Shown piece after piece: positions 3,166 through 15,657 of a stretch of DNA of 64,000 bases (within the stretch, counting starts at the first letter, position 1; each line of letters begins with the position of its first letter). The notes under the pieces were generated by a model. The model saw nothing but the letters and a program-made list of their open reading frames with translations. It made no database searches and was not told the DNA's origin. Source of the DNA: Alicyclobacillus pomorum DSM 14955 (GTDB lineage Bacteria > Bacillota > Bacilli > Alicyclobacillales > Alicyclobacillaceae); NCBI RefSeq assembly GCF_000472905.1, contig NZ_AXAR01000001.1, positions 62,001-126,000 on the forward strand. The letters run 5' to 3'. Both the position numbers and the translations under genes were made by a program.

Positions 3166-3723
3166 TTAGTACCCTCGTACGACAACCTCGAGCTGGCCGG
3201 TGTCCGGGTGAATAATCATTCCGTGGACCGGAGTGCTTGGTGGGAGTAGAGGGTGCTTCTGAATCACGTCCACACTTTGTCGCACGCTGTTTGTCACGTC
3301 GTGAAATCCCTGCAACCAGGTATGTATGTCAATACCTCCATTTTGCAGAACGCGGATGGTCTCTTCACTGATTCCTCTTTGCTTCATGGTGCTCAACGTG
3401 GTTGAAGGATTGATGCGGTTCATACCACACCCGTGATGGCCAACCACAAAGACTTCCTCCGCTTGAAGTTCGTACAGTGCAACGAGGATGCTCCGCATGA
3501 CGTCTCCAAATGGGTCGGTGACCATCGCTCCAGCGCTTTTGACCACAATGGCATCGCCGTTTTTCACGTTCATCGCTTTTGGCAGCAATTCTACCAAGCG
3601 CGTGTCCATGCAGGCCACAATGACCATGCGTTTGCTGGGAAGCCCCGACGTGCGGTACGGCTCGTATTGCTTCGTGCGAACAAATTCTCCGCTATACTCC
3701 AAAATCTCGTCAAGTAGAGACAC
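3166..3723 (-). CDS. Beta-class carbonic anhydrase, YtiB type
   Basis: The 185-residue cytosolic enzyme interconverts CO2 and bicarbonate. The zinc ligands are visible as CMDTR (Cys, with the Asp-Arg dyad) and GHHGCG (His and Cys). N-terminal SLLDEILEY and overall length match the YtiB group of Bacillus. I place the start at the GTG two codons after the first ATG: GGAGGG abuts that ATG directly but is 6 nt from the GTG, and YtiB relatives begin at the same SLL point. The gene converges with the GGDEF gene. Confidence 0.9.
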   Translation of the reverse strand: MSLLDEILEYSGEFVRTKQYEPYRTSGLPSKRMVIVACMDTRLVELLPKAMNVKNGDAIVVKSAGAMVTDPFGDVMRSILVALYELQAEEVFVVGHHGCGMNRINPSTTLSTMKQRGISEETIRVLQNGGIDIHTWLQGFHDVTNSVRQSVDVIQKHPLLPPSTPVHGMIIHPDTGQLEVVVRGY

Positions 3724-3753
3724 GGGCATCCCTCCATGAAATATCTGTCGCTA

Positions 3754-3783: not shown

Positions 3784-3834
3784 GCGATGGGACGTAAACT
3801 ACGCTACGTCAGTGGCGTACATCCGGTCACGAAC

Positions 3835-3951
3835 GTGGAAACCGAATGTGCCAGTGGATCCTGCGAAATCTGGCCGTATTCTCACTGTACCTATTCAAGT
3901 CATCCTTTGAGGTTTCGCCATCAACGAGCTACACTTTACGAAACTGAATAT
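3835..3951 (+). repeat. 117-bp dispersed element, copy A (leader of the aspartate-type permease)
   Basis: This stretch aligns without gaps to the reverse complement of 15504-15620: 92 of 117 bases are identical by hand count. It ends 141 nt before the permease ATG, in the same orientation as the gene. Conserved blocks include TGGATCC, GCGAAATCTGGCC and CCTTTGA. Differences by codon position in the shared open frame are about 11/7/7, with no third-position excess, so a conserved peptide is unlikely. A stem GAAAC (3838-3842) / GTTTC in copy A is preserved with a G-U pair in copy B. The remainder of 3724-4092 shows no gene. Confidence 0.75.
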
Positions 3952-4092
3952 CGTTTTGCGCGGAATCCCGAAAGGGAACCACGTCACAAATCTATTGGTT
4001 GAATATACTGTTTATTCTATTGATTCTGTCCGTATCTTTGAATATGGACCTCATCGCTGTCCATCCTGTTTACCGATGAAAGGGGAGTTTGC

Positions 4093-5679
4093 ATGGCCAA
4101 TCAAGGCACGTTCAAGAGAAAACTGAACCTGGTAGATATGACGTTTATTGGAGTGGGGTCCATCGTCGGATCCGGGTGGTTATTCGCTTCGCTGTTGGCC
4201 TCACAAGTGGCAGGGCCCGCAGCTTGGATATCCTGGGTGATTGGTGCGGTGGCCTCGTACATACTGGGTATGGTCTTTGCTGAGCTCGGAGCAGCGCTTC
4301 CGAGGGCCGGTGGTCTGGTTCGTTATCCGGCCTACTCCCATGGACCGCTCACAGGGTATCTAGTCAGTTTTATGGCGTTCGTCGCGTACTCTTGCGTGGC
4401 CGGACTGGAGGCGGAAGGCATGCGCACTTACGCCAGCGCCTGGTGGCCGGCATTAGGTACACAAAATCCCACAGTGCTCGGCTGGTTTGTGCAGGCGGCC
4501 ACGCTTGTCCTATTCTTTTTGCTAAACTACTGGAGCGTCAACATCTTTGGTAAGTCCAATACCGTGATTACCCTCGTGAAATTTGTGGTACCGACACTTG
4601 CCATTGTCGTCTTTCTCACACAGTTCAAACCCGCCAATTTCTCACTGCATGGGTTTGCACCTTTTGGATTGAACGGAATTGAAGCGGCTGTGTCCACAAC
4701 AGGCATCATTTTCGCGTTTCAAGGTTTTCAACAACCCGTGCTGTTTGCCTCCGAAGCAAAGAAGCCGTCACGTACGGTTCCACTGTCCATTTTGTTCTCG
4801 CTCCTGGTAACGATGGTCATCTACGTATTGCTGCAAGTGAGTTTTGTCGGCGCGTTGCCCGCAAGCCTGCTTCATCACGGCTGGGGCGGTGTGAAACTAG
4901 ACTCACCGTTTGCCAATCTCGCCACCTTGCTGGGTCTTGGCTGGTTAGCCAGCGTCATCCTGACGGATGCCGTATTGTCTCCAAGCGGTACAGCGAACAT
5001 CTACCTGTCCGCCACGGCACGGTTGATATTCGGCTGGTCCAAAAACGGAACCTTCTTTCGCGTTTTTACGAAATTGGACTCAAAAACAGGTGTTCCAAGG
5101 GCTGCACTGTGGTTTTCCTTGATACTGGCTATCTTTTGGACCCTGCCCTTCCCGTCTTGGGATAAGCTCGTTGCAGTTGCATCGTCTTCCGGCGTACTGT
5201 GCTTTGTCATGGGGCCGGTGGCTGCCGCCGCATTGCGACGGTCTGCGCCTCATTTGGAGAGACCCTTCCGATTGCGTGGGATGTCTGTCGTCGCTCCGAT
5301 TGCCTTTGTGATTGCCTCCCTCATTGTGTATTGGACAGGGTGGCAGACCGATTCTTGGCTCATCGGTTCTCTGCTTGTGATGTTTATCCTCTACTGCGTG
5401 TTCCACAAGAAAGCGCCGGATGTAGGCGTATCTTTCTCAGAGCAAATCAAAACAACCGGGTGGCTGATTCTCTATTCCATTGCCATGATTGTTCTCTCTT
5501 ATGTTGGAACATTTGGCGGCGGTAAAGCCATTGTGCCTGCTCCGTGGGACCAGGTGATTGTGGCTGTCGTATCCCTTGTCACCTATTATTGGGGAGTCAA
5601 GAGCGCATTGCGGACGCCGATTCTGGACACGGAGCCGTCCGAAGTTCCCGACGCGAGCGTGTCACCTCAAGTCGGGTAG
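4093..5679 (+). CDS. APC-family amino acid permease, YveA-like (probable L-aspartate/H+ symporter)
   Basis: The 528-residue integral membrane protein has about 12-14 hydrophobic segments. The helix-1 motif GVGSIVGSGWLF is the APC substrate-binding unwound region. Segments ALPRAGGLVRYPAYSHG, LNYWSV and FWTLPFPSWD closely resemble, from memory, the Bacillus subtilis aspartate-proton symporter YveA (about 520 residues). Import of aspartate or glutamate is therefore the best guess, and substrate needs a test. The ATG has AGGGGAG about 7 nt upstream. It appears monocistronic and is preceded by copy A of the 117-bp element shared with ectABC. Confidence 0.85.
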   Translation: MANQGTFKRKLNLVDMTFIGVGSIVGSGWLFASLLASQVAGPAAWISWVIGAVASYILGMVFAELGAALPRAGGLVRYPAYSHGPLTGYLVSFMAFVAYSCVAGLEAEGMRTYASAWWPALGTQNPTVLGWFVQAATLVLFFLLNYWSVNIFGKSNTVITLVKFVVPTLAIVVFLTQFKPANFSLHGFAPFGLNGIEAAVSTTGIIFAFQGFQQPVLFASEAKKPSRTVPLSILFSLLVTMVIYVLLQVSFVGALPASLLHHGWGGVKLDSPFANLATLLGLGWLASVILTDAVLSPSGTANIYLSATARLIFGWSKNGTFFRVFTKLDSKTGVPRAALWFSLILAIFWTLPFPSWDKLVAVASSSGVLCFVMGPVAAAALRRSAPHLERPFRLRGMSVVAPIAFVIASLIVYWTGWQTDSWLIGSLLVMFILYCVFHKKAPDVGVSFSEQIKTTGWLILYSIAMIVLSYVGTFGGGKAIVPAPWDQVIVAVVSLVTYYWGVKSALRTPILDTEPSEVPDASVSPQVG

Positions 5680-13059: not shown

Positions 13060-13446
13060 TTAGTTAAGGAAAAGAGGGTAGGCGCCTTCGTCGTCGTGTA
13101 CCTCTTTACCTATACAAGGCGGATTAAAAACACAGATCAAGCGCAAATCCGTTTTCGGACGGACCCGATGTTTTTCGTTTCCATCGAGCACGTAGAGCGT
13201 GCCTGGAGTGATGGTGTGAATTGTTCCGCTTGAGATATCTTCAATTTCTCCTTCTCCGGAAATACAGTACACCGCTTCGATGTGGTGCTTATACCACATC
13301 ACAGTATCCGTACCCGCCCTCATGACGGTATCGTGGAGAGAGAAACCAACGTTGTCTTTATGAAGCAAGAGCCTTCGACTTGACCAAGTTTCACCTGATA
13401 CGTGATGTTCCGTGAACAGAATCTCATCAAGGCGACGAACAATCAT
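13060..13446 (-). CDS. ectC: L-ectoine synthase
   Basis: 128 residues, the usual EctC length. It is a cupin-fold lyase that cyclises N-gamma-acetyl-diaminobutyrate to ectoine with loss of water. Diagnostic stretches include MIVRRLDEI at the N-terminus, WYKHHIEAVYCISGEGEIED and the metal/substrate region LDGNEKHRVR. I start at the ATG preceded by GGAGGG, 10 codons inside the longest frame. It lies 26 bp after ectB and is the last gene of the operon. No ectoine hydroxylase (ectD) follows. Confidence 0.96.
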   Translation of the reverse strand: MIVRRLDEILFTEHHVSGETWSSRRLLLHKDNVGFSLHDTVMRAGTDTVMWYKHHIEAVYCISGEGEIEDISSGTIHTITPGTLYVLDGNEKHRVRPKTDLRLICVFNPPCIGKEVHDDEGAYPLFLN

Positions 13447-13472
13447 GGGATCCCTCCTCGAACATGGTTCCT

Positions 13473-14783
13473 TCAAATACTCACTGTCAGGCAGTGTGAA
13501 TGGGTCACCTCACGAATACTTTCGGCAAGCATCTCGAGACCAGTGAACAATCCTTTTTCGTCGATAATCAGCGGCGGTAGTAGCTTCATCACCTCGTTGT
13601 TTGGACCCGAAGTTTCCAGTAAGAGACCCTGCTCAAACGCTGTTTGACAGATCTTTTCTGCCATCCCGTCAACGCCACATTCAATGCCTTGAATGAAGCC
13701 TCTCCCCCGAACGGTTGCCTGTAATTCCGGATATCTATCTACAAGTTGAGCGAGGAATCGGTGAACCTTGTTCCCCTTGGCGATGATTTCTTTACTGAAA
13801 TCATCATTTTCCCAATAGCTCAACGCCTCGGTCGCAGTGATAAATGCTAAATTGTGGCCGCGAAAAGTACCGTTGTGCTCACCTGGCTCCCACACATCCA
13901 GTTCGCGGCGTATCAATGTCAGCGACATGGGCAACCCATAACCGCTGATTGATTTAGATAAGCAGACCATGTCGGGCTGAATCCCTGCCGGTTCAAAACT
14001 AAAGAAGGGTCCCGTGCGGCCGCAGCCCATCTGAACGTCATCGACAATCAATACAATCCCATTTTTGCGGCAAATCTGTTCGATTTTACGAAGCCATTCG
14101 AAACTGGCGACATTGACTCCACCCTCGCCTTGAACCGTTTCAACTATGACGGCGGCAGGAAGGGAGAGTCCGCTGCCACAATCCTCGAGGTATTGCCTAA
14201 TGTAAGCTGCAGTATCCGTGTTCTCACCAAGGTAGTTATCATATGGCATAGAGGCGCTGTTTCCTAAAGGAACGCCAGCAGAATTTCGTTTGAATCGGTT
14301 GCCGGAAATCGAGAGAGAGCCCAAGGTCATCCCGTGAAAGGCGTTGGTGAAATGGAGCACGGTGTTTCGACCGGTGGCCTTTCGTGCCAGTTTGAGTGCA
14401 CTCTCTACGGCATTTGTACCGGTCGGTCCAGGAAACATAATCTTGTAGTCTAACCCTCGAGGCTTTAGAATGACTTCGTCAAACCGACGCAGGAATTTTT
14501 CCTTTGCCGTTGTAGCCATATCCAAACTGTGAGTAATGCCATCGCTGGAAATATAGTCAATGAGTTTCTTCTTGAACCGTGGATGATTGTGACCGTAATT
14601 TAAAGCGCCAGCTCCAGAAAAAAAGTCAATGAACTGTCGACCGTTTCCATCCCACAGCCTGTAATCTTTGGCTTTATGAAAGATGGTGGGGAAGCTTCGG
14701 ATGTAACTACGAACTTCTGATTCTAAATTCTCAAACACGGCGAGGGACGTGAAAGATTCTTTTTGTACATCCACTAATGACAC
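13473..14783 (-). CDS. ectB: Diaminobutyrate-2-oxoglutarate transaminase
   Basis: 436 residues, class III aminotransferase fold. It converts L-aspartate semialdehyde to L-2,4-diaminobutyrate using glutamate. Visible motifs are [20 protein letters not shown] for the cofactor phosphate region, [11 protein letters not shown] with the PLP-contacting Asp, and [12 protein letters not shown] with the Schiff-base Lys. AAGGAGG lies only 2 nt before the GTG used here. A second in-frame GTG three codons later is 11 nt from it and may be the true start. It follows ectA after 12 bp. Confidence 0.95.
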
Positions 14784-14795
14784 AACCTCCTTGTT

Positions 14796-15344
14796 TTATG
14801 ACAATGGACCAATTCGAACCATGACTTCAGGTTCGTGATCTTCGTTTGGAAACAAGTGTCTGGGGAAGCATTCTGAGGTTTCACAGGATGTGTCGAGTTC
14901 CCTGGCTAGCCCTTGAAACATGAATTTCGATGCTGAATTGGAGGGGGTAACGGTAGCGTAGAGATACCGAATCCCTTGGCAAGCGGGTCGCTGCAGGAGG
15001 GCCTTTAATAGACCTTTTCCCCAACCATGTCCTTGATAGGATGGATGGACTGCGACTTGCCAGACGAACACGGAATCTCTTTGAGCGGGCTGAAAAGCGG
15101 ACAGGAAACCGATGATTTGTTCGTTGTGAACGAGTACGACTGAGGTGTTAGAAAGGAATTTGCTGATCATGAGGTAACTGTAGGCTGAATTCAGTTCGAG
15201 TGTTCCAACGTGTTGAACCAGGGACCAGATGGCAGCTCCGTCGTGCACGGTAGGTTCACGAAATCTAAACTGAACAGCTGTTGTTTTCATTGTCATCGTT
15301 GGCGTTTGAAGCAGGAGACGACTCGCTTCGTAAGGCCAACACAT
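14796..15344 (-). CDS. ectA: L-2,4-diaminobutyrate N-acetyltransferase
   Basis: About 182 residues, GNAT fold. It acetylates diaminobutyrate with acetyl-CoA, the second step of ectoine synthesis. The core reads FREPTVHDGAAIWSLVQ, then VAVHPSYQGHGWGKGLL as the acetyl-CoA-binding loop (Q/R-x-x-G-x-G/A), and TVTPSNSAS. The start is uncertain: the ATG at 15344 follows GAGGTGAG closely, while internal Met codons near 15296 give the more usual 165-residue length but lack a ribosome site. First gene of ectABC. Upstream lies the 117-bp element copy B. Confidence 0.92.
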   Translation of the reverse strand: MCWPYEASRLLLQTPTMTMKTTAVQFRFREPTVHDGAAIWSLVQHVGTLELNSAYSYLMISKFLSNTSVVLVHNEQIIGFLSAFQPAQRDSVFVWQVAVHPSYQGHGWGKGLLKALLQRPACQGIRYLYATVTPSNSASKFMFQGLARELDTSCETSECFPRHLFPNEDHEPEVMVRIGPLS

Positions 15345-15503: not shown

Positions 15504-15620
15504 ATGTTCAGTTTTGTCGAGTGTAAATTGTCCGGAACGAAACATCAAAGGCTGACTTGTATAGGAAAAGTGAGGATATGGCCAGATTTCGCCGGATCCA
15601 ATGGCACAATGGGTCTCCAC
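15504..15620 (-). repeat. 117-bp dispersed element, copy B (leader of ectABC)
   Basis: The reverse complement aligns base for base, without gaps, with 3835-3951 (92/117 identical by hand). The 5' half is better conserved (44 of the first 51). It is oriented with ectABC and ends 159 nt before the ectA start. Given a plausible promoter at 15658-15685, it would lie within the mRNA leader from about +30. Similarity stops on both sides, so the unit is roughly 105-117 bp. The rest of 15345-15825 has no gene I can support. Confidence 0.75.
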
Positions 15621-15657
15621 GTGAATGATCGCAGCTAACGGGGTTCACCTCTCGGAT

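Follow-up and report, generated by a model that had tools for sequence, protein, structure and literature searches.

Genes and repeated sequence in the window

The window, that is, the whole stretch of DNA analysed here, comprises 64,000 nucleotides of the Alicyclobacillus pomorum DSM 14955 genome. It encodes an amino-acid permease and, on the opposite strand, an ectABC operon, and a copy of the same element of approximately 117 bp is found upstream of each. The genes and the two copies are as follows:

3833-3951, plus strand: copy A, conserved block and predicted promoter before the APC-family permease (92/117 with copy B; model R2 80.0 bits at 3846-3939)
4093-5679, plus strand: APC-family amino-acid permease (PF13520, 137.7 bits; family-level placement)
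13060-13476, minus strand: ectC, ectoine synthase (NF009806, 188.8 bits, cut-off 128; PF06339, 190.8 bits)
13473-14783, minus strand: ectB, diaminobutyrate transaminase (TIGR02407, 675.7 bits, cut-off 552.2)
14796-15344, minus strand: ectA, diaminobutyrate acetyltransferase (TIGR02406, 169.1 bits, cut-off 120.6; start ATG 15344 or 15296)
15504-15622, minus strand: copy B, before ectABC (92/117 with copy A; model R2 81.8 bits at 15516-15609)

Positions 3835-3951 aligned without gaps to the reverse complement of 15504-15620, 92 of 117 positions being identical. BLASTN of the 517-base surroundings against the window returned, besides the self match, a single 119-base match (25 mismatches, 0 gaps, E 5.2e-24) and nothing else with E <1. 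The two copies reached a local alignment score of 115, whereas random pairs of 420-bp window segments (up to 200 pairs) scored 31 at most, so the repeat described in the initial annotation is real. Copy A ends 141 nt before the permease start at 4093 and copy B 159 nt before the ectA ATG at 15344; these distances, and the gene orientation of both copies, agreed with that annotation, and its proposal of a common cis-regulatory element is supported.

The permease had been described as aspartate-type and similar to YveA. None of 22 NCBIfam families reached its cut-off with this protein, which places it at the level of the APC family alone and leaves the assignment to aspartate unsupported. The genome contains four paralogues of it (E ≤1e-60), of which the closest is 59% identical. 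The gene at 3166-3729 (minus strand), divergent from the permease, had no NCBIfam match; by motif it resembles a beta-carbonic anhydrase.

Six copies of the element in the genome

Copies A, F and E were each used to search the genome (3.4 Mb in 36 contigs) at the DNA level, and every search gave the same six places; all remaining matches had E-values of 0.1 or worse. A sequence-only model built from the six copies (R1) recovered the same six at 108-120 bits. The four copies outside the window are as follows:

G000:C2:106754-106866: copy C, joined to a c-di-AMP riboswitch
C34:4452-4558: copy D, joined to a c-di-AMP riboswitch
C20:9733-9830: copy E, 146 nt before a PHB-depolymerase-type esterase
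C31:11730-11820: copy F, joined to a c-di-AMP riboswitch

None of the six copies is overlapped by a long gene, and the reading frames of 70-113 aa that overlap copies C-F are mechanical ones. The predicted promoter described below reads outward in every copy, and three copies sit 141-159 nt before a gene. Upstream of copy C, a same-strand gene (L053:5019-5852) encodes a mechanosensitive-channel protein (PF00924). With a DNA query, strong copies were present in one of 201 genomes, namely the source genome; the 200 relatives gave just two short weak matches, of 22 and 28 bases, at E 0.01. The element was also absent from the sole other species of the genus that was searched.

The claim that permease and ectoine operon have an element in common therefore holds as far as both copies are real, but these are two of six. 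Nor do A and B form a special pair, since B and C are about equally alike: identity for B-C compared to A-B was 0.76 and 0.78 in the outer block, 0.88 and 0.81 in the inner block, and 0.74 and 0.70 in the promoter. A specific logic leading from aspartate uptake to ectoine is likewise not supported by the other four copies: one precedes the esterase, and three precede riboswitches whose targets are different or not clear.

Junction with c-di-AMP riboswitches

Matches to RF00379, the c-di-AMP (ydaO) riboswitch, started no more than 3 nt from the ends of copies C, D and F and scored 117.1, 111.6 and 116.3 bits respectively, against a gathering score of 38 bits. At gathering thresholds, Rfam had no match anywhere in the window, and no RF00379 match was found at copies A, B and E (L001, L002, L005) at E 10. 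The initial statement that no known riboswitch matches is thus correct for the window but not for the element family, which is joined to RF00379 elsewhere in the genome. Similarity was also said to stop at both ends. On the 3′ side this does not agree with copies C, D and F, which run on into the riboswitch, or with copy A, which continues as a remnant of it:

3952-4004, plus strand: c-di-AMP aptamer remnant (5′ part) in the permease leader, from local alignment with copies C, D and F; 3′ part not recognisable

These 53 nt of the A leader aligned to the C, D and F aptamers with scores of 58-60, whereas shuffled sequences reached maxima of 34-40 (0 of 500 shuffles per reference scored as high). 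As the alignment exceeds all shuffles, the A leader is a fossil riboswitch leader in which the aptamer has decayed. The leaders of B and E scored at shuffle level and contain no detectable remnant, so that aptamer "loss" at these two places could be "never had". In the 3′ part of the aptamer region, identity was 0.83-0.89 for pairs of C, D and F, whereas all 12 remaining pairs gave 0.42-0.55.

The genome has 18 RF00379 matches, a number exceeded among 61 genomes solely by G009, with 20. One of the 18 precedes a ProP-like transporter (NF007927, 482 bits, under the cut-off of 544) and two precede ProV-type osmolyte ATPases (TIGR01186, 409 and 453 bits, cut-off 326.6). Several others precede LysM or NlpC-type wall proteins, as judged by eye. 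Downstream of the aptamer, copies C and F have similar short ORFs of 58 aa (L053, MPIYTV...) and 57 aa (L056, MPMYTV...), both of which are preceded by a GAGAGGAG-like ribosome site. It is possible that these encode small proteins or leader peptides under the control of the c-di-AMP riboswitch. The first ORF of at least 100 aa after copy F starts at +366, and no same-strand ORF of at least 60 aa starts before +826 after copy C.

In relatives, 20 of 30 loci upstream of the permease (all but L057, L077 and L079-L086) were analysed with Rfam, which found no c-di-AMP riboswitch at any of the 20 and thus gave no evidence of an ancestral c-di-AMP control of this gene. An EctA match was present in 21 of 151 genomes, the source genome included. 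Analysis of 19 of these 21 ectA loci, leaving out the genome's own copy and one fragment, revealed one RF00379 match (L117:1098-1240, genome G110), which has a poor 3′ half and scored 39.9 bits, just over the gathering score. The EctA of G110 is the one most similar to that of the window (58%). The match may point to an earlier connection between ectABC and the c-di-AMP switch, one that is perhaps eroding in G110 too. When the species-genome collection was scanned with EctA only, an approach limited to close relatives, none of 24 candidate stretches was confirmed.

Predicted promoter and conserved upstream block

All six copies contain, near the 3′-end of the element, a TTGA-type hexamer followed after 17 nt by TACACT. 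The -35 hexamer is TTGATG in copies B-E, TTGAGG in A and TTGAAG in F. The match to the sigma-A consensus is weak, at 8 of 12 positions (counted by hand for all six copies; the computed value was 8 for C and D), and a promoter scan at a threshold of 9 of 12 omitted the promoters of copies A and B. Within the window, the parts of the element are as follows:

3845-3906, plus strand: conserved block upstream of the copy A -35, aligned with ProP-like promoters of three genomes
3907-3935, plus strand: sigma-A-like promoter of copy A (TTGAGG 3907-3912, 17 nt, TACACT 3930-3935; predicted start ~3942)
15520-15548, minus strand: sigma-A-like promoter of copy B (TTGATG 15548-15543, 17 nt, TACACT 15525-15520; predicted start ~15513)
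15549-15610, minus strand: conserved block upstream of the copy B -35 (units GATCC, AATCT, TATCC and TTTCC, 10-bp spacing)

Pairwise identity over the 15 pairs of copies was 0.70-0.91 in the promoter, 0.59-0.88 in the inner block, 0.58-0.78 in the outer block and 0.43-0.56 farther upstream; random 50-mers had a mean of 0.47 and a highest value of 0.68 among 300. From these segment identities, block and promoter are similar in all six copies, with or without an aptamer. The element is most likely a weak sigma-A-type promoter together with approximately 70-90 bp of conserved upstream DNA.

Relatives of the block at ProP-like promoters

With R1, a search of 101 genomes at E 0.1 yielded 14 weak matches in addition to the six copies; E-values of models of this type are rough. 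Rfam analysis of all 14 loci showed that four of the weak matches have an RF00379 aptamer directly downstream on the same strand. These are in G025 and G004, which belong to one genus, in G008, which belongs to another, and at a diverged seventh place in the source genome. In three of the four places (G025, G004 and the source genome) the next long gene is a ProP-like transporter, the family match having been computed for the source-genome gene alone. The ORFs after the G008 match do not look ProP-like. The other ten weak matches are not beside riboswitches, and the best of these ten, second best among the 14 (G017, E 7e-4), appears by eye to lie in the coding sequence of a seryl-tRNA synthetase. 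When R1 was given 92 loci, including 44 riboswitch loci from the relatives and the source genome without C, D and F, three of the 44 matched at E-values up to 1, namely the three ProP-like loci just described. At this threshold R1 gave no match at L094, the riboswitch locus before the ProP-like gene of G008.

In the R1 alignments, block and promoter hexamers stayed in register. Nine 96-nt pieces cut at the -35 gave a gapless alignment (A3). At the three loci with ProP-like promoters, the 70 bp before the -35 were 76-89% identical, whereas the preceding 60 bp were at background (43-52%). The block is thus conserved at ProP-like genes between two genera, the only two in which it was seen there. 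This sharp edge of conservation, found in a comparison of the genus studied here with another, gives the strongest evidence for the block being a functional DNA site. We know of no regulator for a conserved DNA site before ProP-like genes.

R2, a second model, built with the ProP-like sequences included, was run on 61 genomes and found no further strong site: its nine in-model sites scored 70-90 bits, and nine other sites had E-values of 0.005-0.05; R2 matches at ProP-like loci are not independent, as those sequences are in the model. A pattern scan of the species-genome collection returned one record, L157 (MAG YS1.bin19), in which a promoter resembling the inner element (5163-5208) lies upstream of an apparent S53-type peptidase gene. 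L157 is probably the same genome as G027 (L142), and the pattern had been loosened with the G027 match in view, so this record is not independent support. No riboswitch was found at the G027 locus (G027:C153).

The initial annotation had proposed osmotic control. This link is well founded, as three of the six copies adjoin c-di-AMP riboswitches and the nearest relatives found for the element are promoters of riboswitch-controlled ProP-like transporters.

Phasing of short units within the block

The block holds (A/T)(A/T)TCC-like units approximately 10 bp apart, which are clearest in copy C and the G025 promoter and weakly kept in copy A. The best period was 10 in all ten related sequences, which are kin and so not independent; the same held for 33 of 400 random stretches and, among upstream regions of other riboswitches in the source genome, for 1 of 14. 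Phasing beat all 60 shuffles just in copy C and the G025 sequence, and 5 of 400 random stretches scored equally high; in five of the ten related sequences it was within the shuffle range. A test of invariant columns was negative, with 5922 of 20000 random placements doing as well. In the source genome the unit pattern matched exactly at B, C and E alone, with 14 more sites at one mismatch; the control, the pattern read backwards, gave 1 match. The units are suggestive, and only suggestive, of a protein binding site.

Origin and role of the element

We favour the interpretation, at a probability of about two in three, that the element is a DNA-level promoter cassette derived from the c-di-AMP osmotic regulon and kept before ectABC and the permease without the riboswitch. 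The 117-bp element would be double-stranded regulatory DNA, consisting of the weak sigma-A-type promoter and the upstream block. Its original form would have been the upstream half of a cassette with a c-di-AMP riboswitch as the downstream half, as is found before the ProP-like transporter in two genera of the family. We infer that this cassette was copied within the source genome and that block and promoter alone were retained before ectABC, the permease and the esterase, where the aptamer decayed, was lost or had not been copied in the first place. An activator bound to the block would presumably assist sigma-A RNA polymerase at the weak promoter in response to an osmotic signal. In the complete cassette, high c-di-AMP would then cause the riboswitch to stop the transcript; ectABC and the permease, having no aptamer, would depend on the promoter alone. 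With block and promoter kept and the aptamer absent, ectABC, permease and esterase would share control of initiation with the riboswitch genes without being gated by c-di-AMP.

The same arrangement could have arisen by plain duplication of leaders without an activator, such that the sigma-A promoter alone matters and the upstream block is inert and not yet eroded. Strong copies are confined to one species, identity in the block (58-88%) is below that in the promoter (70-91%) and the repeat statistics are not decisive, all of which this explanation accommodates. It has difficulty with copies B and E, in which the aptamer region is at background and yet the block is 58-88% identical to that of other copies, and with the conservation edge at the ProP-like loci between two genera, which makes an inert block less likely; we regard it as unlikely overall. 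The copies might also belong to a mobile repeat or cassette of promoter, riboswitch and short ORF that spreads by itself and lies before ectABC and the permease by chance. The element is indeed multi-copy, its strong copies are limited to the source genome, and C and F extend into a similar short ORF without a near target. Against this, a search of six regions around the copies found 0 inverted-repeat pairs of at least 13 bp, no copy is overlapped by a long gene, the promoters all read outward with three at a similar distance from a gene, and block and promoter also occur in another genus, in front of the ProP-like genes of two species. We consider such independent spread quite improbable.

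Two further explanations would give the conserved sequence a role other than that of a DNA site. A structured RNA element in the 5′ leader had been suggested by a GAAAC/GTTTC pairing, and this short inverted repeat does flank the -10 region in copies A and D. The covariation check on the six sequences came out negative: the RNAalifold covariation term was +3.42 and 1 of 26 pairs was changed on both sides, which leaves the pairing, and a covarying structure in general, without support. Folding was no better than in shuffles (z 0.97, 0.50), a comparison of low power given that the genuine copy C aptamer had a z of -0.23; the fold energies of the A and B leaders (z 0.27, 0.97) were within shuffles as well. 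Furthermore, the predicted transcription start lies near the end of the element, most of which would then presumably be untranscribed. An RNA structure is hence very improbable and was rejected, mainly on the lack of covariation. The other explanation is a protein-coding remnant on the opposite strand, where a reading frame is open in five of the six copies (B-F) and variable columns fall into the codon phases as 16/41, 25/40 and 20/39. This periodicity is weak, copy A has a stop in the frame, and the same DNA keeps the promoter spacing and TACACT in all copies. The antisense reading was rejected on the weak periodicity and the stop, and is hardly credible.

Returning to the promoter cassette, a more far-reaching version can be proposed. 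The block would be the site of a new osmotic activator that recognises (A/T)(A/T)TCC units one helical turn apart, defining a DNA-level regulon that normally acts in series with the c-di-AMP riboswitch. Copies of this two-layer cassette would have reached new genes in the lineage and been stripped of the RNA layer where shut-off by c-di-AMP was unwanted, so that ectoine synthesis and the uptake of amino acids became part of the ProP regulon. Taken jointly, these propositions are tentative and the odds are against all of them holding together. If the cassette interpretation is true, ectoine synthesis in a Gram-positive lineage would be tied to the c-di-AMP osmotic network via common promoters and not via the riboswitch itself. 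It would also show how a riboswitch regulon may grow, and then lose its RNA layer, by the copying of whole promoter-leader cassettes, and would point to a conserved DNA site before ProP-like genes.

Comparison with known systems

The closest known system is the c-di-AMP (ydaO/yuaA) riboswitch RF00379. Three of the six copies lead into bona fide members of this family, and other members in the source genome precede ProP-like and ProV-type osmolyte transporters. The element differs in being the DNA upstream and not the aptamer, and copies A, B and E are without a recognisable aptamer. The parts of the open-licence literature consulted, on c-di-AMP riboswitches, ectoine, Alicyclobacillus and riboswitch loss or duplication, did not report such a cassette.

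In Streptomyces, the response regulator MtrA directly activates ectABCD under osmotic stress, and the MtrA site described is a 7-bp half-site with two fully conserved bases (PMC13189361). The likeness to the present case is that ectoine synthesis is controlled at transcription initiation, as proposed here. The leader of kdpFABC in B. thuringiensis contains a c-di-AMP riboswitch that terminates transcription on binding (PMC6488665). The present case differs in that the promoter half is multi-copy, carries a long conserved block and is also found without a riboswitch.
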